Origin: Tubulanus polymorphus
Taxonomy: Eukaryota > Nemertea > Palaeonemertea > Tubulaniformes > Tubulanidae
Assembly (NCBI RefSeq): GCF_964204645.1
Contig: NC_134025.1
Coordinates: 22,040,001 to 22,104,000, forward strand
Direction: 5' to 3'
DNA: 64,000 nt
Shown here: positions 28 to 63,792 of the stretch, piece by piece
Layout of the letters: each line of letters opens with the position of its first letter
How positions within the stretch are numbered: the first letter of the stretch is position 1
Position numbers and translations under genes: made by a program
Notes under the pieces: model-generated
The model's input: only the letters and a program-made list of their open reading frames with translations
What the model was told of the DNA's origin: nothing
Databases searched by the model: none

Positions 28-3000
28 CACTCCAAAGTATAAGTGCTTCCTGCGCTTCTCACCTTCCTGATAAAGGGCAATATATGAACCTTCACTACAA
101 AGTAAGTACCCCGGTACAAATAAATTATTCATCACTAGTGACTAGATATTTATATTTTATATTTAGAAGCGCAGCAAGTTATTTACCTTATGTTGATTTC
201 GTAAACCATGTTGACACCACTTGTCTCAGGCACAGGATCCTGAAATTCAGAATTACACATTATAGCCATTCTCAATATGAAATTTTAATTAAACGGTTTA
301 ATTTTTGTTCAATAAACTTATATATAATTTTAGCCTACCGGTTACCGGGTACCTCAGTTACTCATATTACAAATAAACTGACGAAAGTGAACACATATAA
401 CATATTTTTTTACTCACATGAACTACGGCTAATTTTTCCTTGTCTGGTCTTGATGGAGCCTGAACAATAAAGGAATACAAAGTATGAATATTATTTTCAT
501 TAAATTTGCTCATTTCAAGAGATCTTTTTCAACTTACAGGATTAATGGAGCAAGTTCCATTTTGTGGTCTTGTTGAAGCCTGCAAGAGTTTTTATTAATT
601 ATTGAATTAATTTCTTTATGATGTGTGTTTTTCACCGTTTGATATGAATCGTAGAACTGTTCTTAAACTTACCGTTGTCAAACATTTCTTTTTCCTTCTT
701 TCTAGTTTTTCCTTTTCTTTTTGTTCTTTCAACTTCTGTTTTGAAACCGCATTTGCATATGCATCATCCGCAGTTAGAATGAAATAACGCTTATCATCGC
801 GTTTTCTTTTCTTTTCAGTTGGCATCAGTACGGGATAATCCAGCACATCATTGTCGGGATCAGCTAAGTACATCAAAATTAATCAGTAAGTATATGCAAT
901 TTGTTTGTAATTATATATTATTTATACTGCATATTTACATGGCGAATAAGTATTATCATTATTTTAAAAATGATCTTAACTCTTACCTGGGGATGAGTTA
1001 TTTTCGATCGGGAAGCTATCGATAACTTCAGCTGATGATTTAGTTTTCAAAATTTTCCATGCTGAATACAGTGCATCATTAGTCAAGTCACAGCCTTCGG
1101 TGTATCGTTCTTCAAATTTTTTCTTCATTTCCGAGGAAATGGCTGATTCCATTGCCTTTAAGGCAATGGAATGACCATCGATAGTTATAGGCAGTGTCTA
1201 CAAAATAATATGGTCAACCACTGATTGAGAAGATTATAAAACAATTCACAAATTAAAATATCTCATCCATTTGAAATCATCAATAAAATCTGCAATTATC
1301 ATTTTGAAAAGGATATATTGTGCTTGGACTTGAGAGACTGAAAAAATCAATGATCATGAAAAAGGTTAGAAACTGTAACACACAATGCAACAAACACTCG
1401 AACAGGTCATTAGTCCAAAAACAATCTAAACAAATTAAATTAATCATAAAAAAGTTGAAGTGAAATTAAATCACTATTCACACCTCACGAAATGGTTTTT
1501 CAACTGTTGTCAATACATTAGATGCAGATTCCTAAGTAAAAAGTAATGTGAAGAAAATTTTTTTTTTTCATCTTTACATTTGATAATATATATGGAACTA
1601 GGTTCTCTTAGATATATTTTAGATTTTTGTGCAAGTTTTACGAGAAAAATACCTTCGATAATCCTGAAAATGGATCTTGCATCGTTTCAATTGTAGGATC
1701 TGATACCTATAACCCATTATAAAAAAAAACATGTAGGTACAGTTAACCTCAATTAAGGGCAATACGGGTTACTTATTATTCAGTAACTCACCACATCAGC
1801 AACTCTTGTGCTTGATGGTAAAAAAGCTTCCTTGGGAATGATCTCGGGATTGAATGGAAAAAGACCACATGCTCGAAAACCATTTATAAGGTTCTCCGGG
1901 GTTATACTGAGCCATGTTGGTCTGAAGATCTCAAAGAAACAACTTTTGTTCACTATACGTCCCGGATTTTCGTTATGAAAATTCAAACATAGGCGATTCC
2001 ATGATGCTTTCAATGTCTTAAAGCATGATCTTCAAAGAAAGTGAAACATTAATTAGTCAGTTGAGGTCTAATTTCATTGGAAGATGTATTCTTTAATAAA
2101 ATCTGTAAGAAGTGTGTTTACCGATCTAAAGGTTGCAACCAATGTGAGGTATGTTCTGGTAATTCTAACAGTGTTACTCCATTTTCTCTTGCCAGCTCGA
2201 CCAATTCAAGAAAATTGTGGCTGTTATGTCCATCGGATATCAAAATCTGTGGACGAGCCGCTCCAATAGCAGGTAAAAAATTTTTCTTAAACCAAATCGT
2301 TGCAATTCCCTGTTGAAATCATGAATACATGAAATTTGACAATGCTTTTCACTTCAGGAGCCTGATTCAAAATGTGACTGACAACTAATTACCTGTTTCG
2401 TCCAACCACTCTCCGATACAGAAACTGTCGTACCTGCCGGTGCGTTCATTGTGTCAACTGAGAGTAATGATGCTGCCGTCTTGCCCTTAAAAATAACGTT
2501 AGGGGCCAGCATCTGCCCAGCAGCATTTCCACATGCCATGATCGTAACTGTTTCGCGATTGCCGCTGATTCGAGATTGAACATACTTGCTCCCTTTTCTG
2601 TAAATAAGAGTTTTGAAAATAAAATTTTCATCGTTATAACGTTCATTCCTAAATCTGTTGTTTTATGACTGTGGTATTGAGTTTCTGTATCTGGATGATT
2701 GCTGATAGTCGGAAATTAAAAATACTTCAACAACTCATTAGAATATTGCTGGGCTTAATAACTTGGGTTTGATAAGGGCTATTTATAGACCAACAGTTGA
2801 AGTATTTAAATGATAGGCTAATTTAGTTCAAAGCCTACCGTGCAACAATTTTTCCGGGGACATGAGAAAACTGAACGCCAGTTTCATCGAGATTCCAAAT
2901 ATGCATCGGTTGAGCATTTAGCAATACTTTTGTGGCCGATCTAAAGAACATTCCAACCTTCTTAACATTCATGCACTGATGTCGGATTGCCGCAGTGCCC

Positions 3001-3459
3001 TCTGGCTTTCGGAGTGCAACAGTGGGGTTTCTAGTTTTAAAGCCAGCCCAGAACTGGTCACTCGGGATAATCTAAAAGTAAAATATATATACCAGTATTA
3101 ATTATAAGGGATAAACAACAACCTTTTAGTGAAAATCGTTGGCCTACCTGTTTAAATGGTGTCCCCCTTTTTAAGGCGAGATCACCCGCATATTTCAATA
3201 GATTTCCCTTTGAAAAACCGTAACCGAGGTCTGCACGGTTTTTCGCGAAATCCGCAAGTTTTGATTCATCTGCCTCAGACAGATTCGTCGGTCGACCTAG
3301 TTTCCTTCCTGCAGGAATTTTCCCACTTATTCGGTCATGTAATGTTGATTTTGGTACGCCAAAGTTTTTTGCTGCCGATAATATTGACATCCCATTCTGA
3401 ACAGCCTCAACAGCTTCACCCATTTGCACTTCTGTCCAACGCCGATACACTTTTGACAT
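28..3459 (-). CDS. Intron-rich pogo/Tigger-type transposase-derived gene (partial, 3' end off the window)
   Basis: Twelve coding exons on the minus strand: 3459-3148, 3071-2839, 2597-2393, 2309-2122, 2029-1792, 1706-1653, 1531-1484, 1197-987, 863-673, 579-538, 459-418 and 66-28. All junctions are GT-AG and phase-consistent, giving 601 residues without a stop. The start is the ATG at 3459 (MSKVYRRWT). Residues 8-55 look like a psq-type helix-turn-helix ([20 protein letters not shown]). A DDE_1 catalytic domain follows, with D166 ([10 protein letters not shown]), D276 ([10 protein letters not shown]) and D312 ([10 protein letters not shown]); 35 residues separate the last two acidic positions. 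The C-terminal third is lysine-rich ([25 protein letters not shown]) and ends in three short phase-0 exons. In the pogo/Tigger family such proteins bind and cut transposon ends, or act as domesticated DNA-binding factors. No frameshift or stop is visible. The many introns and the absence of obvious flanking terminal repeats favour a domesticated gene or an old intron-bearing family. The final exons, especially 66-28, are less certain than the transposase core. Confidence 0.85.
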
Positions 3460-5068
3460 ACTTAAAAATAAAAAACATTGTAAATATCATGTTGATTATA
3501 AAAATAATAATAAAATGAATTCATTTTCTTTTATAAATAAGCCTTAATTATTTTCCTTAGTAAATATCATCACATGTTATTAGTTACAACCTGATCTCAG
3601 AATGGCATTTTCATAATTTAGGCCTACTGATAACTGTGTTATGGAGACTAGGTTATAGGCCTAGGCTCTGGGGCTAAAATGATGAATCAATTTGCATTTG
3701 TTTTCAGTATGCACTCTTTTGTGACAGTTATCTCAGAAAAAGGCCTGTTTGATGATAGACTACCGAGAAAACACACACAAATACCATCTATACATAAATT
3801 CGGAACTTCCGAAATTACGTGAACGAGCCAGAATAACCGGGTATACGATATCCGAAATTATGTGTAGGCGAGCGAGTTTCTAAAAATCGCTGATATTTCA
3901 TCAATGACCGTATTCCAATAGCGAATGAATGTTTATAAACAAACTTTTTACTTCCTAGAACTTCTTAGTAGTGTTTACATAACAGCTGGCCGCGAAATGC
4001 CGTAAAAATGGGGCAATCAATAATGTACTTACATGACCGATTTTTATCTCCTGCTTCGCTGGTTTCGTGTGCCGGGAAGAAATGCGTACTACGTCATCAA
4101 AACGGCGCGGATTTCCGTGGAATTCCCAGGAAATACCAACCTACCTCCCCTTTTTCAAATTTAAGCTCGTCCGAATAGGTATTCCCTCTACGCGACTGCT
4201 GAGAGGCCGTAGAAGAAAACTTCCGAAATTACGTGGTCTTCCGAAATTACGTGGAGTTACCCTAATCGAAAGAAAAAGTACACGATGTTTCTCTTACATG
4301 AGAACATACTGCACTGCGTATGCTTATTCTAAAATTAAAATGCATCAGTTTTCAGGTAAGGACGACAAAAACGTTTTCTGAAATAGGGCACCCTAAAAGT
4401 TCACATGATCTATCAACACACGCTCATTGGGCTAAGAATTATTTTTCTGTTGCGTCGATAGTTGCTGCACACGGGCGACTGATGAGTGATTTAACTGCAA
4501 CTCGCAATTTTCCATTGCACTATATCGAACATGTTTGCGCTCGAAAAAAAAACTGTTCGGACCCTGTAGGCCGGAGTAGAGAATAGGCAACTAGTGGGAT
4601 ACAGCTTGCGATGAGACCAGCTTGCGGCCTACCATATGCCGCCAGTTGCTGATAACCCCAGTACCTGTCACCCTGTAGTCCGACAATTGTTTGCCGTTCG
4701 TGTTCAAGAAATGCATTTAGGCTATGGATTTTAACTCACAATTTCTCATGCGGACAAGTACAAAGGGAAATAGACAGTTCATCATAGGCCCAATTTATTC
4801 ACTTGATATGAAATTCATTAAAGTAAACATCTGTGGGTCGGAACTCAAGCAGTCATCCTAGTGCGCAGAGATAACTAAATTCACCATATCATATCGCATT
4901 TTGTTCGGTTAATATCTTACGTGTTTGGCCAAAATCCCAGTTATGAATGGAAAATAACGTATTAGTATACATATACATGTATATAAATGATATATAGACA
5001 CTTGTGAAAATCTCTTTTGAGATTATTCAAAAGTTGTAACCTAGTTATGTCCATTTAGGAATTCCATA

Positions 5069-6862: not shown

Positions 6863-9094
6863 TCACCACACTCTTTTAATTCCAACAGCATAATCATAAA
6901 GTTTGGTATTTGTAAAAGTACCAGATTTGTCTATGAGGAAAAACATATAACGGTCTTTTATTTTCATAGCTATTTGATTTTCCTTGCCGATCCGCGAATG
7001 TAAACAAGTCACGTGCTCCAACGGCACCGTCATCGTTCTTTTTCTTGCCGCGAACGAGTACGTTTCGATCATCACAGACTTTCCTCCTTTCAACAAATAA
7101 AGTCGGTGTATAGTCCTCAAAGGATAGATAATGCTTATCGCGAGACAAATGTAACCTAAATAAGAACAATAAGTTATAATATAAGTTACGACAATCACTT
7201 TCGAAACCATGCATTTTCCAATTCATGTGGGTCAGATTTCGTTGCCTAACTCCCCCAGTCAGCAAATATGGTAGAGTTATTCTTCATAATGCTACTAGTG
7301 TTGGGACCAATGGAAAACATAGCGTTATAAAGAATGATATTTTCATCGAATTTGTGTTGGATCGGGCAAATGTGTTATCTGAAAAATGTTGCCAATAAGT
7401 GAGCAATGGCATTAAAAAGATGGTGTAATAACGAACTTTTTACTGTATATAAGCATTAGCCTATTACATAAATGGAAGAAATTTCAAGACCACCTCTAGA
7501 ATATGTCATAAATGGTAGACAATTTCAAAACTACAAGTATTGTGATTAACAGATCATTAGTACCTAAAAATCTCAGTACTGGTATTGATCTTAAGCCATG
7601 TGTCGAACAAAATATGTCATTGACCTAAAATGAGTATCGCACCAGCTGGTTATTAAGAGCCAGGTTTGTCTAAATGTTCATTTCATGTTTAAATGCTTAA
7701 TCGATTTCCCATTTAAAACAACTCAATTGGTAAAATTATGTCATTGCATATACATGTACAGTCACGTACTACAGTCAACGGGTGCTTAAGGTGATTCACT
7801 GAAAGTAACCACAAACGACCTCATATGTTGTTTTTCTGGAAATCGGTAACATTTTTAAGGACAAGCTATCTTGTAGTTTCATTTTCCAGAGGTGCAGTCT
7901 TACAGTGGAACCTTGTTGTAATGAACTCAATGCAACGATTCATCAGACTATAACAACTATAGAATTTCGTCCCAAGTAAGACAATTCCACTAATTTCATA
8001 CTGGATATAACGATTTATCGGTTATAGCTAACATATGAACTTGTCCCGTGAAGTTCACTGTAACGAGGCTCCACTGTAAACCCCACTTAATCCAGATCAT
8101 CATTTCTGGTCCAGGAGACAGAGACTTTTTTTTCTTTGAATATCACGTTTTTGAAGAAATTAAGTCTATTCGCCACGGCAATATTTAGAACCTGTTCAAA
8201 ATTGGCATTTGGCCGCAGCAATAAAAAATTGCTTCCAACGTACCTGGGAGAAATCTGGATTATTAATCATTTATGTTCCAACTAACAGCGTCTGGTTTAG
8301 AGCAAAATCTGAATAGCCTAAAGTATATCTTACTAACATCGGAAACTAATTTGAAGGATCACCATTCATAATACAGTATCAATCAACAAAAATTTTGATG
8401 AATATCCGTACTGAAATTACAGATTTATCTTACCTAGCGATAAGCACAATCCAGTTATACCATTGCGATACATGTTTTTGCCCAAATTGATTTTCTTCCA
8501 CCAAGGAAGGCTGTCTTGATCGGCGCTGGAGGTTTCGAGGCTGGGGGTTGAATTGACATCTATCAAGTTATTATACGAAAAATGCGCCAGATACATCCAG
8601 AATATGAATTGCGCAATACCGAACAATCCTAATACTTTGTATAGTCGTTCGTTATCGTAACGGAATAGGAGAACATCTTGGCTGACATTAGGATCGATTT
8701 CGAAAGGAGCTTTGCCCGTCATTCTTCTTTTAGTTGCTGAACCGATAGTAGCGTAAATGCTCTTTCCATTATTGATGGGCGAAAAAAATCCAAAATTCAT
8801 CTTCCGTGGTATGCTTCCCGAAATGAACATTAATCTGTTAGTGATTCCAGCAATAGTTTTACTGGAAAATTTTTGGTTGTTTATAGTATGAAAAGAATTA
8901 CGACTAACATCTTTAGCAACAAAAACAGTCTCCAATTTAGACAAGAAAAGCTGACCCCGCTGGATACACTGTGGTGGTGGTGAATGAACCACAGCAGAGC
9001 CAAAAGAGTTTATTTGGGTGCTGCCAATTTTTGTGAAAACTTGATTCCGTCTTATCAAGTTTACAGAACAATGTAGTAGTAGGTTCCCGGACAT
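6863..9094 (-). CDS. TMEM223: Transmembrane protein 223 (mitochondrial complex IV assembly factor)
   Basis: Two coding exons, 9094-8434 and 7155-6863, join in phase 1 to give 317 residues. The start is the ATG at 9094 (MSGNLLLHCSVNLIRRNQVF); the basic, hydroxylated, acid-poor N-terminus suits a mitochondrial targeting sequence. The TMEM223 signature FRYDNERLYKVLGLFG lies at about 145-159. Transmembrane segments are expected at about 153-172 and 212-233. A conserved soluble tail carries LLKGGKSVMIETYSF and PLEHVTCLHSR. The human protein is an inner-membrane factor linked to COX1 translation and complex IV assembly. The protein is longer than human TMEM223 (about 200 residues) because of an extended N-terminal leader. 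The single intron contains a TA-flanked repeat (7903-8076). The gene is head-to-head with PPP1R21 across about 400 bp. Confidence 0.9.
7903..8076. mobile_element. Short element with pogo-like ends, in the TMEM223 intron
   Basis: It starts cagtggaaccttgttgtaat and ends in the inverted equivalent gttcactgtaacgaggct followed by ccactg, and it is flanked on both sides by TA. The termini and the TA duplication are those of pogo/Tigger or other Tc1-mariner non-autonomous elements. Copies with the same inner sequence (tttcatactggatataacg) lie at 18177-18365. Confidence 0.75.
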
Positions 9095-9494
9095 TATGAT
9101 AGCTACTTTTAATGGGTTTTAAGCGCTTTAAAGTGTCGTGAAATCAGTTTTCGTGAAATCAGTGGGCGCGGCCATATTGGGTACCTGTAACTTTGTAACA
9201 ACTACGCGAAAAGATGTTTAGTAGAGTTTTAGATATTAGCCATTGAAGAACAATTTAGATCAATTTGAGGTATTTATAATCATGATTAACTTATGCATTT
9301 CATAAACTATCTAATCGAATAGACGAACTCTCGTTAATCTACACGAAAGAAAGCTTCCTATATTCCTCTACAGTCCATTATCCGGCAAATAGTTCTCTGT
9401 GGTTGCAAGGCACCGAACGCCAAGGTTAAGGCGACAGCCCCAATTTTTCATTTACCAAGTAGTACCTGTCACATAAAATTATAGAAGAAAAACC
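9095..9494. promoter_or_regulatory. Likely bidirectional promoter of TMEM223 and PPP1R21
   Basis: Only 400 bp separate the two divergent start codons. No TATA box is obvious for either gene. This is an inference from arrangement: head-to-head housekeeping genes at this distance usually share a promoter. Confidence 0.5.
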
Positions 9495-16646: not shown

Positions 16647-17403
16647 CGTTATTATTATTATTATTATTATTATCCTCATTGCCTTTGTCCTCCTAGGAGA
16701 TGATGGTTACAGAGTAAATAGCCTAGGGCCAATAATCATATGAGCAGATTATGCGTAACTTTCCCTTTCTCCACCGAATAAATTGCGTTCCAGGTCCTGA
16801 TGTTTAAATCAAATGATAAAGATACGTCTTCATTTCCTAGGACGAGCTGCAAACTACGAAACGAAGTTACGAAAGCCAACTTAGTCTAATGAGTGAGCAT
16901 ATAGCTGGTTTGAATGATAAACTGACAACACAAAAAGATGAGATTGATGCTCTAAAATTATTACTTAATTCACACTCTAAGGTAAATACGGTATAGGTTT
17001 TATGGTTTTGAGGTATATCTTTTTGTATTCATCTTAAATCCAGGGTACAAATAGACTGATTATTTATTTGCACAAATCATCATAAAAACTTCATAAATTA
17101 TCCCTGGGTAAAAGATAAATTAGATTTTCATTGTCATTTAAAATAGTTGATCGAAGAATGATCATTGTTTTGAGCAACTAAGTTAGGGTCCAGCTCACAA
17201 AACATAACTGAATTCAATATGAAGTGAAGAAATTAGATTGATTTAAGATAGTAGGATATTTTTGAAACCCAGTCTCAGTGAACGTTCATATTTATATGAA
17301 ATTATCAATGAAACATTGATGAAAATATGAAAAATTGGCATTTCTTATAAAAGGATATATATTCTTTATTTTTCAGGGTAGTCGAAACCTCAAACGCAAA
17401 TAA
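9495..17403 (+). CDS. PPP1R21: Protein phosphatase 1 regulatory subunit 21 (KLRAQ protein, FERRY subunit Fy-2)
   Basis: Twenty-one coding exons give 787 residues, close to human (about 780): 9495-9545, 10315-10383, 10911-11057, 11292-11396, 11562-11726, 11829-11887, 12189-12283, 12928-13130, 13642-13743, 13835-13923, 14121-14257, 14327-14419, 14524-14651, 14946-15113, 15299-15391, 15470-15571, 15782-15925, 16030-16176, 16428-16526, 16841-16981 and 17377-17403. All junctions are GT-AG with matching phases. The N-terminus has the family signature GKYQKLATEYSK followed by LRAQ (KLRAQ domain) and a coiled coil (SIRKYEQEIDSLSFRNQQL). The middle has SLEEECAVASCTS, and the C-terminal family motif TTKRSYESQLSLMSEH lies at about 737-752. 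In mammals the protein is the Fy-2 subunit of the Rab5-effector FERRY complex on early endosomes, which carries mRNAs, and it was first described as a PP1 interactor. Nothing is broken or missing. Confidence 0.95.
9678..9906. mobile_element. Short element with divergent tRNA-like ends, copy 1 (PPP1R21 intron 1)
   Basis: The left end contains agattcgaacctga, a tRNA B-box-like motif on the minus strand, with an A-box-like ccatggcttggtga about 30 bp away on the same strand. The centre has a stretch shared with 50725-50993 (accaatcagattgcttgtt). The right end carries gcactcggtctagtgtggca followed by gggtttc, the inverted counterpart of the left-flank sequence of copy 2. It is a non-autonomous repeat, SINE-like or MITE-like. 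Confidence 0.6.
16614..16673 (+). repeat. (ATT)n microsatellite in a PPP1R21 intron
   Basis: About 60 bp of ATT repeats, interrupted once by a cgtt. Confidence 0.9.
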
Positions 17404-19077: not shown

Positions 19078-22000
19078 TTAATTCATCTCTGGTGAAAAAG
19101 TAGTAGTGGACACATTGATGATCGGGTAAAAATCGTGACCCTGCTCATACAATCGCGTAAATGAGATGTCCATTGTCGAGGCGAGTGGCGCTTCTTCAAT
19201 GAATTCCTGTCGTTGATCTTGAGTATGCTGAAGACATTCTCCCTTCATCGCTTCGGCGTACGTCTGAGCCTTTTGCCTGCAAAAGCATTGCGATGTCAAA
19301 ATCATTCAAAAATCACAAAATTTTCTTGGCGAATGAGGAAGTGAGGAAGGTGAGAAAACAGACCTGTAAGGTTCTTGTTCCTGTGGGGACATCTTTCTCC
19401 AAGTTTGTCCCAAGAGTTTGCTTACTTGTGCAGTAGGCATTCCTTTATTTGCCCTGAAAGTAATATTTGTTCTTCAAGATATAACAGAAAAGATATTAGA
19501 TGAGAGGTTGACGTTTCATTTTCAAAAACGCTTTTGGAAATGACCGATAAAATTGGACCGAAACGTAAAATACTCATTTAGTTTTTTCTAATTATATTGT
19601 GGGTTTTCACTCCACGTTTGATAGTATGTAATGAAAAAAAAAACTAACATGATATAATCTCTTCGATGCAACCTACTGAACATCATAAAACCGTTCATCC
19701 ATGATGTTTTCCTCAAGTCGACCTTATTCTGTTTTGCATCATCCCTAAGACTTCAATTGCAATACGACGAGAAAATCAATTAACATATATACATGATATA
19801 CCGAAACGCGTGAATTTGATGATGATCAATGAATATTTCGATGTTTTAAGATAATCTTTAACAACCTACCCGTTCATTTCGACGACAGCTTCCTGCGAAT
19901 GCTCGTCGTTACGATCTAGAAATATATAGAAGAATAGATAAATGGACTTAGATTTAGTAAAACAGTATGTCCTTCTTTCTCGATACTGGTCAACTCAGAA
20001 AACCGCTTATTTGGTAGTATTTATATCAGGGTTTCAGTGCCTTAAATTTCGAAGTACAGCCTATTGGCTTGCACTGTATCCCTCGGAACCAACATCTTGT
20101 ATAAATATTAGAAACAATTTTTTCATTTATATTGTATGTACGGTTTACGAAAAATGAATATCTATCTATCTATCAAAGGTGATAGAATTGCATTTCTATT
20201 CTCGCAGCGATCAGAAACGGTTTGATTCCAATATGTTGGTAAACCTGTGAAATTGTCAAAATTATCATGTACAGAACATCCAGGCGCGGATCCAGGGTCA
20301 TTTAGTGACTGTCTCACAACATAATAAATCCCGTAGTACCCGCACGCGCTTTGGTTTGCGGATACAACGGGATTTATTACAACGAACTAAACCTTTGTCT
20401 TTATATATAATTTTAGTTTTATTGGCAACTAAAAATTTTTTAAAGCAGCTCTGACTGTCGCACGTGCGGCAATTGCGACAGCGTGGATCCGCGCCTGACA
20501 TCTCAAAACTGACCTGACGAATCAGGTTCGATTCCTCGAGTTCTAGTAGTTGTCTTCCATTTATCCGGTTGTTGGTGAATGTACCTTCCCACGTCGTAAT
20601 ACTGGTACTGTGGAGAGTCCGGTGGAAATTTCAGCTTTCTCTTCATCGAACAACCCCGTCTAAGATTTGAATCTTCCACCGCCACACCGTCGACTGCTCG
20701 ACTCGAATGCAGCAAATCTTGGATACCGTCGTGTCGACCATCGACGCAACACGATTTCGACGTATTGTGTACGACATCGAATTCCATCGGTTCGTAACTC
20801 AGCCCAGTGCAATTATTCGTTGTCACGTCCTGGCTCCATTCGGGCTCGACTTTGATACGCTTTGATAAGGTACACAACTTATCCACTGGCGAAAGTAAAC
20901 AGCTTTCTTGACTCTGAAAATATGAAATTTTGAAGTGCATAAAATGCCTCCCCCTGACCCTGTCCTTGTCCCTCTCTCCACGCTGAATTGAAATTCGTGA
21001 TGCAATGCATGGAATTATCAATTTTTCATTCATAAAACCTGATTTCCTTTATCGTCTGGTTCCATGCCGATAAGAGAATTGTGGAAGAGGGTTTGCCACT
21101 GGTCCGGATCCCAGCTACCAGCTTTCAGTGGATTGCGCAACGTGTCGTCTAACGACGGCATCGAATGAAACGGTTCGTGCCAATATTCGACCAAGGGGTC
21201 TTGTTGGCTCGTCGGCAAACTGATCGAAGACGCCTGGCTAGCACCAAAACTCGTCGTTGTAGAATCGACAGTTGGCGAGGATAGCTTGTATCGTTTGAAT
21301 GGAAGTTCGCGCATTTCTTTTCGCTTCATATAAAAGGAAATAAGAGAAAAGCGAATGAGACAAATCTAATTGAGACAGGGCGATTGATTTCCATTCTATA
21401 ACAATTCATTTCCACCTCTTTTACACAAATTGATAAATCCGGCACTTCAGCAGTAGTATGTTCAGGCGCCTTATTGTTGTCACCTCTTGCTAAATTACAC
21501 AGAGAAATAGAAATGTGAGTCAGTAATTCATAGTGACACTCTTTAATTCATTTTTCGTCTTCAAATCATTAATGATTACCGCTCATACCTTCGTTTGAAG
21601 CGACGAGATGTAAAAAGATACGCTCGGCTTCTTGAGGCAAGTCAAGACCCAACATTTCCACTAAATGGATGAGGCATTCTTCCAGAAAGCATGTATAGTT
21701 TATGATTTTTCGCAGCATCTCTATCTGAATGAGCGGCACGAGTTTGACATGTAAAATGTTTGGATCAATTACGTCACTGCATGTGTTGGACAAAAAAGTT
21801 GGATTCGAAAATGAATGTCAGAGTTTAGTACCGTACCTTTGTTTCTTTCACAGAGTGAGCCGGATCAGGCCTTGGGACCAATGATGAAATCTGTTGTAAG
21901 ATTGCATTCAAACTATGGTGACGACTCCTGTAATAGAGACTCTATGTTTTTCATTTCTATCAGAATTTTCTTTGCCTCCCACGACGAGTTACTCAAATTG

Positions 22001-24050
22001 TATCTAATATCAGCTAGGCCGGGGCAGCGTGGTGTTTGTTCGCTTACATCCGGTAATAAGCGGAATTATTTGACATGGAAAATAACCACCATCAAGGATA
22101 AGGACCCAGTCTTTTAATACCTTATGTTGACGAATATATGTTATCGCCTTTGTTTCCGAATATAAACTGGTTAACGTGAAACATGATTTGAATCCCCCCC
22201 CCCCCAAATAAACTGACCTTTCGTTATCCCTGTGCTGTTTTTGAAGTCTATCCCATGTTCTTGGCGAGTAACGAGCTTTCGCTTGTTGCACTTTTGCAAT
22301 CGGTGTTTTCAAACCACTCTCTTCTTTGGTTGCCTTCGTTTTCGATGTTTCTTGCTGATCGTTGCTTACAACATCTAAATTGATTGACTTCGTGATATCT
22401 TCGGGGTTTGGAGAAAAGTCGGGCGTTTCCTCATTTGTTGGATTGAGCAAAGCCCTTGAATCATCATTAGGAATTTTAACCGCATCTAAATTCCGTAGCT
22501 CCTCGTCAGCAGCTTGCACGCGAAATTGAACGTTGACTTGATTTTGGAGGGGACAATTAGTGGCTGGATTCGAATTATCTGACGCAATTGTATGCACGAT
22601 GCCGGTGCTGGGAATTGTCAACTGATTATTTGCTTGTTGTTGTAACTGTGTTATGAACTGGTTCAGTTGCTGCGCCGGTTGATGGATGAACGTGGTTACA
22701 GGCGGATTATTAGTTTCATCCAAACTAATCGTGTTGGGAACTACTTGAAAGACCGACTGAAAAATGAATGATTACAAACTGAGTCTACCATCAAGGCCAA
22801 CCAGTGTTGAGTTTCTCTTGAAGATGTAGCGACGGCCGAAAATGTTGTCTCCATCATCTAAAACTGCTGTGGATCATCGGAATTTGTCTCCTCGTTATGA
22901 TAAACTGAGAAGTTCCACACTAGAATCCACAATTCATCTTCCAGTTTCAACTAATCGTTTAACTCTTAAATCGATTCAGTTACTTCATTAATTCAATGTG
23001 TCTTAAAATAGATTTAGGTGTTATCCTTTTGTGGAACTGGACCCGCTGTCAATTAGTTTGACTCCAGATTGAGTTAAGAGGCTGTGTAAAATGCCCATAG
23101 GACTGTCCAAAACAAGGACTGAAAATAAGCTGAGCTAGTAATTAAGTATACTGAGTCGCTCCAGAAGGATAGGTTTTATTTTCTTTTATTTACATGTGGC
23201 CAACAAAAGATGATCGAGATTTTGTAATTTTAAACATTTTACAATAAAAACATGTGCATTTACATTTACTTGTAGTTTGAACACCTGTTTCCATCAGATA
23301 TAGATATAACCAACACTCGCTTCATCATAAATATATACTATAGATCCAATCAATACACGATATTCATGAGACATATAGAGAGAATTCAACAGTACTGCCC
23401 AGTGTGAAGAATGAAGAAGGCGGCGAATAATTATGATAAACTAATAGTTAGTAAGTAAAAAAAGCCGTCTCATGGAAGTCATCAACGCCTAGAAGAGATT
23501 AGTTTTGAATACTGTCTAGGGGATTATGGTGTTGTGAATTAAAACAGATCGTACACGTATCTGTCCCGGATGTGCATCGTGAAACATATGCATTGCAAAG
23601 GCTATAATACACTTAGATAAATTCAGGATCCAGGGTATTGTCAGATTATACTTTAGGTGCGGTTCCAGCTGAGACTTGTCCAAAAATCTGCTTGCTACGT
23701 CGTGAAAATGAGCAAGGCCCTTGTGGCCCTATTGTTTATCTAAGTCTAGGTCTTCACTCCGAAACTGTTTCTGACGTTGGTCCTATCGTCGTAATCCAAT
23801 GAGGACATACGATTTCTAGGATCAGAACAGTCCTATATATAAGCCTCTAGTCCTCTAGAACATCAGAATGAATTTCGATGGACTGGAAGAGCGCCTTATG
23901 TTACTTTTGAGGCACATCTTCTTTTAATACCTGAACTGTACATGGCGTCAACTTTGAACTTGTCTTCAGGAAGGCAGATTTCGGTAGACTTTTAGTAGCG
24001 ATGCCTAGTTTATTCCATGGCTTCTGAAATCGATTATAAGATGATGACAT
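19078..24050 (-). CDS. bHLH and HMG-box-like protein, MEIOSIN/BHMG1-like
   Basis: Ten minus-strand exons give 659 residues: 24050-23931, 22756-22218, 21927-21837, 21724-21589, 21489-21416, 21323-21039, 20913-20514, 19915-19870, 19453-19364 and 19276-19078. All are GT-AG with matching phases. A bHLH spans about 206-275: basic region QKQHRDNERSRHH (H-x3-E-R-x-R as in E-box binders), helix 1 SLNAILQQISSLVPRPDP, helix 2 ETKIEMLRKIINYTCFLEEC. After a low-complexity acidic and Ser/Thr-rich middle, residues about 545-605 resemble the last two helices of an HMG box (TAQVSKLLGQTWRKMSPQEQ, PYRQKAQTYAEAMK). Vertebrate MEIOSIN (BHMG1), partner of STRA8 in switching on meiotic genes, has this bHLH-then-HMG order; orthology is inferred from architecture, not alignment. 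The start is uncertain: 24050 is the first in-frame ATG of its exon. Oddities are a missing first HMG helix and a hAT-like insertion in the preceding intron. Confidence 0.75.
20281..20497. mobile_element. hAT-like short element in the bHLH-HMG gene intron
   Basis: Terminal inverted repeats are caggcgcggatcca and tggatccgcgcctg. The five bases acatc occur immediately on both sides (20276-20280 and 20498-20502). The right subterminal motif cgcacgtgcggcaattgcga is shared with the left end of the element at 5259-5722. It ends only about 16 bp from the 3' edge of exon 20913-20514. Confidence 0.7.
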
Positions 24051-24663
24051 TGCAATGGATTGGGAAAAGAGGTGTTTGATATGAATGCACCTGAGCAAAG
24101 GATCAATTACTCGGACTCAGTTTCGCTTATTTACCAAAACTCCAAGATGAATGAAATGGGTTTTGTATTCAACTTTTGAACTGTTGGTTTTCGGCTCTCC
24201 TTGAACTATAAACCTTTTCGACATTTTTATCAGCCTGAAAAAGAGGAATAATATATAATATCATGAGCTGTCAATGTGATTCCTCCAGGCTGGAGATTTT
24301 GATACTCGTAATTTTGTCTAACTAAGCCTGTACTGGAGGCGGGAATCGCTTTGCCCGTCGTTTTGCCAGGCCCATGGTCGAAAATGTAGCACATAGATTG
24401 AGAGCTTGACACGCACAATGATGAGTGAGACCAGTGGCAATTCCCGCATATTATTTTGGTATCTAAAAAACACTTTAGTACTTTAGATACCGGGGCACAT
24501 CCCTCCTCCGACAATTATATCATCTGGTCGTGTCCAAATGGCAACAAGCGCCATATCAACAAACTGTCAGGACATGTCATTGTAATAATGTCAACCTCGC
24601 AATGACGAAAATAGATAGGCCTAGGGGCGAGTGAGTGTGTAATGTGAAATGATAAAAGTCAGG

Positions 24664-24863: not shown

Positions 24864-26604
24864 AATAAACCATTTTACAGTTGCTAGCCGCCATTTTGTT
24901 AGGGTACTTTTGTCCCGTATTGTTGGGTCATTTTTTTCTCTTTTTTAAAAACTATCCGTGATGTGTATTGTATCATATTTCATCTGTCGATGGATGGATT
25001 TTGACAACTTCAGCAACATTCAAACCGCGTGAATCTCTAGTTTTCAGTTATGTTAAAATCATTTCTCAAATTTACAACAATGCGACATGAGAGCGATATA
25101 AAAATCGGTGGTCAGTTTTTGCCGTGCGCATAGAAATCCAGGGTACTGAACTTTGAAGTTCGTTATTTTCAGAAATAATTTTCTAAAAAATCCAAACATT
25201 TCAAGCACTGTGCGCATAAATGCCCCCTTTTAGGTGAACTTTGAAATTTTAAGATATCTTGCCTAGTTTTTTTCCTATGGCTCTTTAACTGCAGCGCGTG
25301 TATTGTCATTCCGAGATTCGGCGCTGTTTTCTTTGCGTGTATTTCAGTATATGGGAGTTATTTCTTCATTTTCACTACACTTGTCTCTACGGAAAATGGT
25401 TTTAATTGTTGGTACGAGTATCAGGTTTAAATATCACGTCGTTTATGCAATATAATAGATCGGAGACATTAGAGATGTTGGGGTTTAAGGGATTTTTCTG
25501 ACCAGTTTTAGCAGCGAGACTGAGCGGCATTTTGATCACGCATTCGAAGTTGCGCGCGGGAAGAGAATATATGGGCCTATATTGAGATGGAAGAAGAAAA
25601 GAAATATAGCACTCAAAATCGAGTATGATGACCATTTAAATCAGTAGTCTATCAATAAATTTACATAAAAATCTACTGAAATTAGATGGATGGAGAAGTG
25701 GTCAAAAAGCTGGACAAATGGGGTGGGGCAAATATTCAGCTACTTTCTATGAATACTTTCTATTAAGTACACTCAAGATTGATTAGATTGGGAAGAAAAT
25801 ATAGGAAAACGTTTTCTTTTTTTCGAATGTCAGACGCAGGTGATAAAAAGTAAAAAGTGACATCTACCATCACCAAAAACGCAAGAAGTGTGTGGATTGC
25901 ATTTACAACAAAAGAGTGATATTTTGGGTTTTCTTGGGTGCATGTACGTAAGCCTCTGCCTGCCGTAAAAGCGGTTACCATTACAGCCATTACGAACTAG
26001 CGCCGGAGAACGGAATACAGTATTAATGTTGTAATATTTAAACCTGATACTCGTACCAACAATTAAAACCATTTTCCGTAGAGACAAGTGTAGTGAAAAT
26101 GAAGAAATAACACCCATATACTGAAATACACGCAAAGAAAACAGCGCCAAATCTCGGAATGACAATACACGCGCTGCAGGTAAAGAGCCATAGGAAAAAA
26201 ACTAGGCAAGATATCTTAAAATTTCAAAGTTCACCTGAAAGGGGGCGTTTATGCGCACAGTGCTTGAAATGTTTGGATTTTTTAGAAAATTATTTCTGAA
26301 AAAAACGAACTTCAAAGTTCAGTACCCTGGATTTCTATGCGCACGGCAAAAACTGACCACCGATTTTTATATCGCTCTCATGTCGCATTGTTGTAAATTT
26401 GAGAAATGATTTTAACATAACTGAAAACTAGAGATTCACGCGGTTTGAATGTTGCTGAAGTTGTCAAAATCCATCCATGGACAGATGAAATATGATACAA
26501 TACACATCACGGATAGTTTTTAAAAAAGAGAAAAAAATGACCCAACAATACGGGACAAAAGTACCCTAACAAAATGGCGGCTAGCAACTGTAAAATGGTT
26601 TATT
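24864..26604. mobile_element. Large foldback element with about 570 bp inverted arms
   Basis: The left arm (about 24864-25437) and the right arm (about 26031-26604) are near-identical inverted copies. For example aataaaccattttacag at the left outer edge matches ctgtaaaatggtttatt at the right outer edge, and ggtacgagtatcaggtttaa at 25411 is inverted at 26039. About 590 bp of unrelated AT-rich sequence separates the arms. Only scattered differences are visible. No transposase or clear target duplication was found. A foldback-type DNA transposon or an inverted duplication would both fit. Confidence 0.85.
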
Positions 26605-27338: not shown

Positions 27339-29999
27339 GTCGTAGAGTCACTGCTTATTTACATGCAGTGGAAATCGATGACGTTTTCACAGGAACCAGG
27401 AAGTGAAAGAAAAGGGTTTTTTTGCTAATTTAGACAAAAACTATCGTTCATTCGAGCTTTTACTGTCGATCAGAAGAACTGAGATGGATGGCATCGGTAT
27501 GTAGACTAAATGCATCTATTGCAAGTTAAGATTACTTCGTAGAATTAGGTGGCATTAGTCGTGATGATGAGCGCAGAGCGTTCTCTTGACAGTTTGACAT
27601 CTCTGACATGCTGACACTGACAGCCAGTCAGAGGCACTAAGTCAGTCGCGGCACTGACATGTTACTGTTTGATTAGAAAGCAGTGGTGTCAGAAAGAAGT
27701 GTCGAGATAAAACGATACCAAACCCCTGACACCGCAGATCAATAAGCATGAGTACCACCCGTGAGTGAGCATGGTGAATCTGAATATTTGTAGCCTAAAT
27801 GATACTGATTGATAGGACTCCTGGAGTCCTGGCCTAAGTGTTAATTCTTTTCACTGAAATCGAAATGAGGCCTAACCCTGTATCATTGTAAAGTAGGCCT
27901 ACTGATTCTAGTGTACTTGGCTGAGATTATCTCAGAAGTGATCGTAGATCTTAAGACTGGTCTTAAGTTGTCAGATTGGCTATATAACTGAGATGGTCTT
28001 AGACTGGTCTAAGTCATGACTGGTCTTATTGCGCAATTGCTCAGTTGAGACTTAAGCCAAGGATGGTTTTAAACCCGAAGACTCGTATTAAGTCATACTG
28101 GCCCCAGTGCTATAGCCCTACCAGTCCATAGGGCTAGTAATTTACTTTTATCACAAATAATTACTCTTTCAGTCACTTCACTTGTATCGGCCTAGCTTTT
28201 ATTTTTGGTTTATGTATTTTTCTTAAGATTCAATACCAGCAATTAAAGTTGACCCATCAATGGGTAAATTTTGTTTTCACAAATCTTCTTTCATTTTACC
28301 ATTTTGCATGATTCCTGTCTTATGATTTGAAACCATCTCATCTATTGCTGGAAAGTGTATTATCTTACAAAAAATATTTAAATTTTGATATTTAGATTAT
28401 TCAAACTCTACTAGACCTATCATCTCGTTGAGATTTATTTGTGCATGATATAATGACACAGAGTCATTAACGGTATAAGGAATTCAATCACTACGGTTCC
28501 TTCACGATGTTAGATGTTTTCAATTCTTTTTGACAGACGCGTTATGTAACTTCCCCATAACATCTAATCAACTCACTCCGGTCTTGGGTTTGACTTATTA
28601 GAATAGAGATTTTAAAAACATTAGATTCAGTAACCGGTTACTGTACATGTAGTTGGCTTGCATTTATCTTATGGTGGTAGCAACACAGTTCCATATCAAT
28701 TCAATGTAGATTTACTGCACCTAGAAATCTATCAATGTTATACCAAGTTCCACGTTTGCTGTTTAAATTTGACTCTGGAGCAGTTAAAATCAATCCATTT
28801 CATACAGAAAATTTGACTCCCAGAGTCCCATTGGAAAAAAATGAACAGTGGAGCTGGGTATAGTTTATTTATTCACGCAAAAATATTTTTTCTGGATATT
28901 TGAATAGTTCATGCAGCAACGAGTCAAATATTGATACCTCACTGCGCAATAAGCTCTGGGTAACTTTCTGCACATATGTTCAAAGGCTAAAATAAAAATG
29001 ATACCTTGTTTCTCCTAATCGGCCTAGTCATTTTGTAAGCTGCAATAAAATTTGTATCAGTTCATTGCTGCCAGGTCTACGGTTAGCCTGATCAAGAAAA
29101 AGATAATATACAGGTTACGTAGGCGGTTGGCCGGGTCAACTTTTGTGCTCAGCAGAAATGAGAAACAATGTATTGATTTTTTCAGCCTAAGCGTCGTTTT
29201 GTTCTGCGTTAAATCTTAACCTGGATCTCAAGGTATATTAGGCGGCGCTTATTGCCAATAGATGAAGTGTTTTTGAAGTAGCAGTTATCTTAAGAATAGT
29301 TTTCGTACAAAAATCTGTTCATTTTATCCACAGAGGCCTGAAGCTAAAAGGACATTGTTCTTGTCCCGGGAACTGAATCTATTACACAGTGCCTGCGTCA
29401 AATACCATATTATTAGTCTAGCTGTGGATTTTATTGTCCTGTAGCGATCTCCCTCTTGGTAGATAACCATGGCAACAACCCACTATTAAGTCGTATATAT
29501 GGATTTCAGTGAGCTTTGTCGACTGTTGAAAAAATATAGGCCTGCGGATCATAGAAGATGCATAGCCTAGGTTATCTCTAATGTTGTGCCAACCAAATAG
29601 GCTACAAGCTTTTTTGAATAACTTGCGAAATTGTTTGAGATATTATCAAACTTAATAGGCTATTAGGCTACTGCCTACATAATATGGTTACTATCTTTCT
29701 TTCATTACTATGAGTATTCTTTGAAGTGTCGTAAACAGTAGAGTCTGGTTTAAAGAAATGTTTTTTTTGTTGGGCACAACAGTCATAATTTATTGGTCGG
29801 AAAACTGCTATAAATTGCATTTGCTTTTTATCGAATCTGGACCTGGAATTATTGTTGAAATCAATCGCGTACCTGTCTGTCTCGTTGTCGTCACCTCGAG
29901 AGACTGAGAGAGTATATTGATTATTCATGCATCACCGCCAGTCCAGACATATTCCGCGTCGTCTAGTTCAGCACAGCAGACGCAGCGGAAACGGCAGAT

Positions 30000-60028
<30,029 letters not shown>

Positions 60029-62657: not shown

Positions 62658-63792
<1,135 letters not shown>

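Follow-up and report, generated by a model that had tools for sequence, protein, structure and literature searches.

Two animal families are known to pair a bHLH domain with an HMG box, and the question raised by this locus is to which of them a gene of this build in a probable invertebrate belongs. The window, i.e. the whole stretch of DNA that was analysed, is 64,000 nucleotides long and contains such a gene. On the basis of its architecture and gene order, we consider it likely to be orthologous to MEIOSIN (BHMG1) and thus a new member of a known family. Literature is cited here from excerpts. In these, STRA8 and MEIOSIN are described as the mammalian meiosis starters tied to retinoic acid, the zebrafish meiosin gene is expressed in late progenitors (PMC12289312), and a mussel gonad study contains one mention of stra8 (PMC7804246). 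Among the matches listed on MEIOSIN, BHMG1 and STRA8 in this partial literature, no invertebrate MEIOSIN was named in titles or the beginnings of abstracts. The gene may already be annotated among the predicted proteins in sequence databases. If it is truly a MEIOSIN orthologue in an invertebrate, the pre-vertebrate role of this factor and its need for STRA8 or retinoic acid become questions which can be asked.

Gene structure and exon organization

The gene is located on the minus strand and runs from 24224 to 19078. Its exons were assembled from genomic DNA into a chain of 12, encoding a protein of 709 residues. All 11 junctions of the chain possess GT-AG introns with compatible phases. E1 (24135..24224) is the probable first coding exon. 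It has its own ATG as putative start codon (MSKRFIVQ...) and is followed by the donor GTAAAT, from which a phase-0 splice leads to E2 (23931..24023). E3 (22218..22756) encodes a glutamine-rich region at the N-terminus together with the larger part of the basic region. E4 (21837..21927) encodes the end of the basic region, helix 1 and the loop of the bHLH domain, while E5 (21589..21724) encodes helix 2 and the stretch after it, both as placed by the exon chain together with Pfam. The split of the bHLH across three exons, one of only 91 bp (E4), had been described in the initial annotation and was recovered here. The linker is formed by E6 (21425..21489), E7 (21039..21323), E8 (20514..20913) and E9 (19870..19915), the last of only 46 bp. 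The HMG box is distributed over three exons, all placed by the exon chain and Pfam. E10 (19649..19744), an in-frame exon of 96 bp, encodes its helix 1 (WMNGFMMFSRLHRRDYI), E11 (19364..19453) its middle part, and E12 (19078..19276) its end along with the C-terminus and the stop codon.

Two candidate start codons are present. One is the ATG of E1. The other, MSSSYN at 24050, reads through the acceptor of E2, to which E1 alternatively splices in phase. A ten-exon chain which starts at MSSSYN (24050) and lacks E10 encodes 656 residues. A multi-exon bHLH and HMG gene at 19078-24050 had been proposed earlier with ten exons and 659 residues; the gene stands, and the model is revised to the 12 exons and 709 residues given above. 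As 656 is close to 659, the earlier model was probably built without E10, with a gap of three residues unexplained. The C-terminal HMG box of that model is likewise present, but the exon for its helix 1, and perhaps also E1, had apparently been omitted. The intron in which E10 is situated holds 22 in-frame cassette candidates, and 19649-19744 was selected among them since it makes the HMG box complete. With an alternative acceptor six bases further upstream, the exon would be longer by two residues. As E10 is phase-neutral (2/2) and 96 bp long, its loss leaves the reading frame intact, and it may be skipped in some transcripts.

The splice sites were chosen by eye, the exon chain was built, and the sites were ranked afterwards with a generic matrix against a background of 300 GT and 329 AG in the region. 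On this scale no GT of the region exceeded the threshold of 5.5, the top score being 4.6. Nine of the 11 donors ranked 18th or better of 300, the weak ones being those of E6 (89th) and E7 (64th). Weak acceptors were found at E7 (115th), E10 (100th) and E11 (68th of 329). By these ranks, the linker exons E6 and E7 and the edges of E10, along with the acceptor of E11, are the least certain parts of the model. The joint between E8 and E9 bears on the integrity of the whole chain, as a bHLH gene (E1-E8) and an HMG-box gene (E9-E12) could lie here side by side. The intron between them measures 598 bp, E9 contains an ATG codon as a potential start, and the chain is known from genomic sequence alone. 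Nevertheless, the donor of E8 ranked 2nd of 300, the acceptor of E9 ranked 21st of 329 and the phases agree across the junction, which makes two separate genes very improbable.

Domain composition of the protein

Both domains score above their Pfam cut-offs. The bHLH domain (PF00010) reached 28.4 bits as an isolated region against a cut-off of 20.7, and 23.3 bits in the whole protein, and the match is a moderate one. The HMG box (PF00505) reached 46.2 bits in isolation against a cut-off of 25.4, and 43.5 bits in the whole protein. It is nearly full, occupies residues 598-654 of 709 and is situated C-terminal to the bHLH with a spacing of about 316 residues. With E10 the match covers profile positions 5-61 at 46.2 bits, and without it positions 14-61 at 37.9 bits. 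No model named for MEIOSIN was found among the Pfam matches of the protein.

By eye, the basic region HRDNERSRHH shows the glutamate and the arginine which contact the E-box, and the HMG box retains MN-F-M, a motif typical of SOX-type boxes. When the HMG region was compared with PDB, an SRY-HMGB1 chimera (E = 4.6e-11), SOX30 (4.6e-8) and HBP1 (6.1e-7) were matched. For the bHLH the best PDB match was NeuroD1, which is weak (E = 0.0035). Neither a MEIOSIN nor a STRA8 entry was present among all eight PDB matches of the bHLH or among the best 60 of the 68 matches of the HMG region.

Related sequences in the same genome

The own genome of the organism (267.8 Mb in 77 contigs) was searched for relatives. 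It revealed no close bHLH paralogue, the best match beyond the own exons having E = 0.02 (3 further of 6 places), and no close HMG paralogue, with a best value of E = 2e-5 (8 further of 11 places). In unspliced scans, 83 bHLH and 53 HMG places (E <= 10) were paired by position, and no second bHLH and HMG gene was found among these pairs. The nearest pair lies 65.6 kb apart on opposite strands. The gene of the window itself served as control and was recovered by half. E11 alone surfaced in the HMG scan (24.9 bits, E = 0.0066), and the bHLH of the window is missing from the 83 places. A STRA8-like gene whose domains are split over exons might therefore escape this pairing search. An HMG box over two exons, weakly similar to that of the window (41% over 37 residues, E = 0.385), was observed on the plus strand of contig C3 (G000:C3:20658026-20658334); all listed bHLH places are more than 225 kb away from it.

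Gene neighbourhood and linkage

An EML (echinoderm microtubule-associated protein-like) gene is situated on the plus strand, its matching part extending approximately over 38606..59501 with coiled-coil and propeller exons. The coiled coil (from about 38606) matched EML4 (E = 1.6e-9) and EML2 (E = 5.6e-8) in PDB, and the propeller exons match singly, under whole-domain cut-offs. Upstream of the coiled-coil exon, at 29979-37000 on the same strand, short ATG-led stretches with donor-like ends were seen by eye. First exons of the EML gene, perhaps alternative ones, are possible at 29979, about 32873 and about 36958. The distance from the bHLH and HMG gene is 14 kb to the confirmed EML exon and 6 kb to a possible first exon, and the two genes are probably adjacent in head-to-head orientation, 6 to 14 kb apart. 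Between them, at 24864-26604, lies an inverted repeat with arms of 590 nt, 97% complementary, and a spacer of 561 nt, which looks like a fold-back mobile element.

Other features of the window are a late PPP1R21 exon at 16841-16981 on the plus strand (PPP1R21_C, 65.3 bits), a GCD14/TRMT61A-like tRNA methyltransferase in two exons at 62661-63792 on the minus strand (157.2 and 80.1 bits), and an ORF of the TMEM70/TMEM186/TMEM223 family at 8420-9118 on the minus strand (51.7 bits). An ORF with a Psq-type helix-turn-helix at 2357-3486 on the minus strand (46.8 bits), which has a DDE_1 match under its cut-off nearby (17.3 bits), is perhaps part of a pogo-like transposon. DR5 retinoic acid elements were not enriched, as five were found against 3.58 expected and 27 of 100 shuffles gave at least five.

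LOC388553, an older name of MEIOSIN, is named together with EML2 in an excerpt of a human gene list. Excerpts of further sources place EML2, FBXO46, GIPR, QPCTL and SNRPD2 in a single human locus (PMC9345824), list GIPR, SNRPD2, QPCTL, FBXO46, BHMG1, SIX5, DMPK, DMWD, RSPH6A, SYMPK and FOXA3 in the human region (PMC10449981), and give FBX046 (so printed), BHMG1, SIX5, DMPK, DMWD, RSPH6A and SYMPK around the DM1 repeat (PMC6888582). With an EML neighbour in the window and with EML2, FBXO46, BHMG1 and SIX5 sharing a human locus at 19q13.32, the gene order favours MEIOSIN over STRA8. The PPP1R21 and TRMT61A-like neighbours are absent from the excerpted human gene lists compared. Five families, small ones near human MEIOSIN selected once EML was known, were searched in the genome, and four of the five were found on the contig of the window (C1). 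All matches of SIX (4/4), RSPH4/6 (9/9), IRF2BP (1/1) and OPA3 (2/2) were on C1, the IRF2BP model having also matched one bacterial control genome, while all three SYMPK matches were on contig C2. The four SIX matches and the single IRF2BP match, set against the numbers in vertebrates, together with the size of the genome, point to an invertebrate; COX1 gave no match in the assembly. OPA3 is 1.7 Mb away from the gene and the remaining families 4.8 to 21.8 Mb, so the linkage is at chromosome scale only, EML excepted. The probability that at least four of five families fall on C1 by chance is 0.0006-0.0013 when C1 is taken as 10.8-13% of the genome, where the lower share derives from the top coordinate seen, which sets the contig at no less than 28.9 Mb.

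Possible function and evolutionary origin

A meiotic role of the gene is suggested by its likeness to mouse MEIOSIN, which is reported to act with STRA8. The bHLH would dimerise with itself or with another bHLH protein, and the HMG box would bind and bend DNA. Together they would act at the promoters of germ-cell genes and switch the cells from mitosis to meiosis. The findings suggest that a MEIOSIN-type meiotic factor predates vertebrates. We also put forward, only tentatively, that in early animals entry into meiosis was already controlled by one MEIOSIN-type gene, which either preceded STRA8 or worked in its absence, and that the STRA8 and MEIOSIN pair of vertebrates was derived from it.

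Comparison with MEIOSIN, STRA8 and other families

The resemblance to MEIOSIN stated in the initial annotation is borne out by the domain chain, and is extended by the EML neighbour and by the four of five families on the contig, but the architecture fits STRA8 as well. MEIOSIN contains bHLH and HMG domains like STRA8 (PMC9604137, excerpt). As STRA8 shares this build, architecture alone cannot select MEIOSIN. If the gene goes back to an ancestor that MEIOSIN shares with STRA8, or is nearer to STRA8, it would be a co-orthologue and not an orthologue of MEIOSIN specifically; we hold this to be unlikely. It would agree with the single bHLH and HMG gene detected in the genome. The EML neighbour, however, matches MEIOSIN at human 19q13.32, while human STRA8 is located elsewhere, at 7q33. 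In mouse STRA8 the two domains are spaced by about 136 residues and not by about 316 as in the window gene. Of the 393 residues of STRA8, 28-79 form the bHLH and about 216-268 an HMG box predicted by Phyre2 (PMC6392498, excerpt), and the STRA8 basic region is without the E-box determinants (PMC7810945, excerpt), unlike the basic region of the window gene, which has both residues by eye.

Points which count for MEIOSIN orthology are the domain order, the EML neighbour, the contig linkage and the absence of a detected closer paralogue. Those which count against it are the similar build of STRA8, SYMPK on C2, the distance of 1.7 to 21.8 Mb to the linked families other than EML, the PPP1R21 and TRMT61A-like neighbours, NeuroD1, of another family, as best PDB match of the bHLH and the weak splice sites, along with DR5 elements that are not enriched.

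SOX/SRY proteins and HBP1 resemble the window gene in the HMG box, where they gave the best PDB matches, and to our knowledge they contain no bHLH domain. NeuroD-type proteins share the bHLH, with a weak match, and we know of none with an HMG box. Nor do we know of any animal family other than MEIOSIN and STRA8 which pairs the two. This bears on whether the two domains were fused independently in this lineage, with a convergent likeness to MEIOSIN. The moderate bHLH match, and a likeness which rests on architecture and gene order, would allow such a fusion; the shared domain order, the lack of a further family with this pairing known to us and the EML neighbour make it very improbable. In MEIOSIN the bHLH precedes the HMG box, and this order is found in the window gene with both domains over their cut-offs. 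The vertebrate family and the gene of this probable invertebrate are thus likened by architecture and gene order, with EML beside the gene and the SIX, OPA3, RSPH4/6 and IRF2BP families on the same contig.
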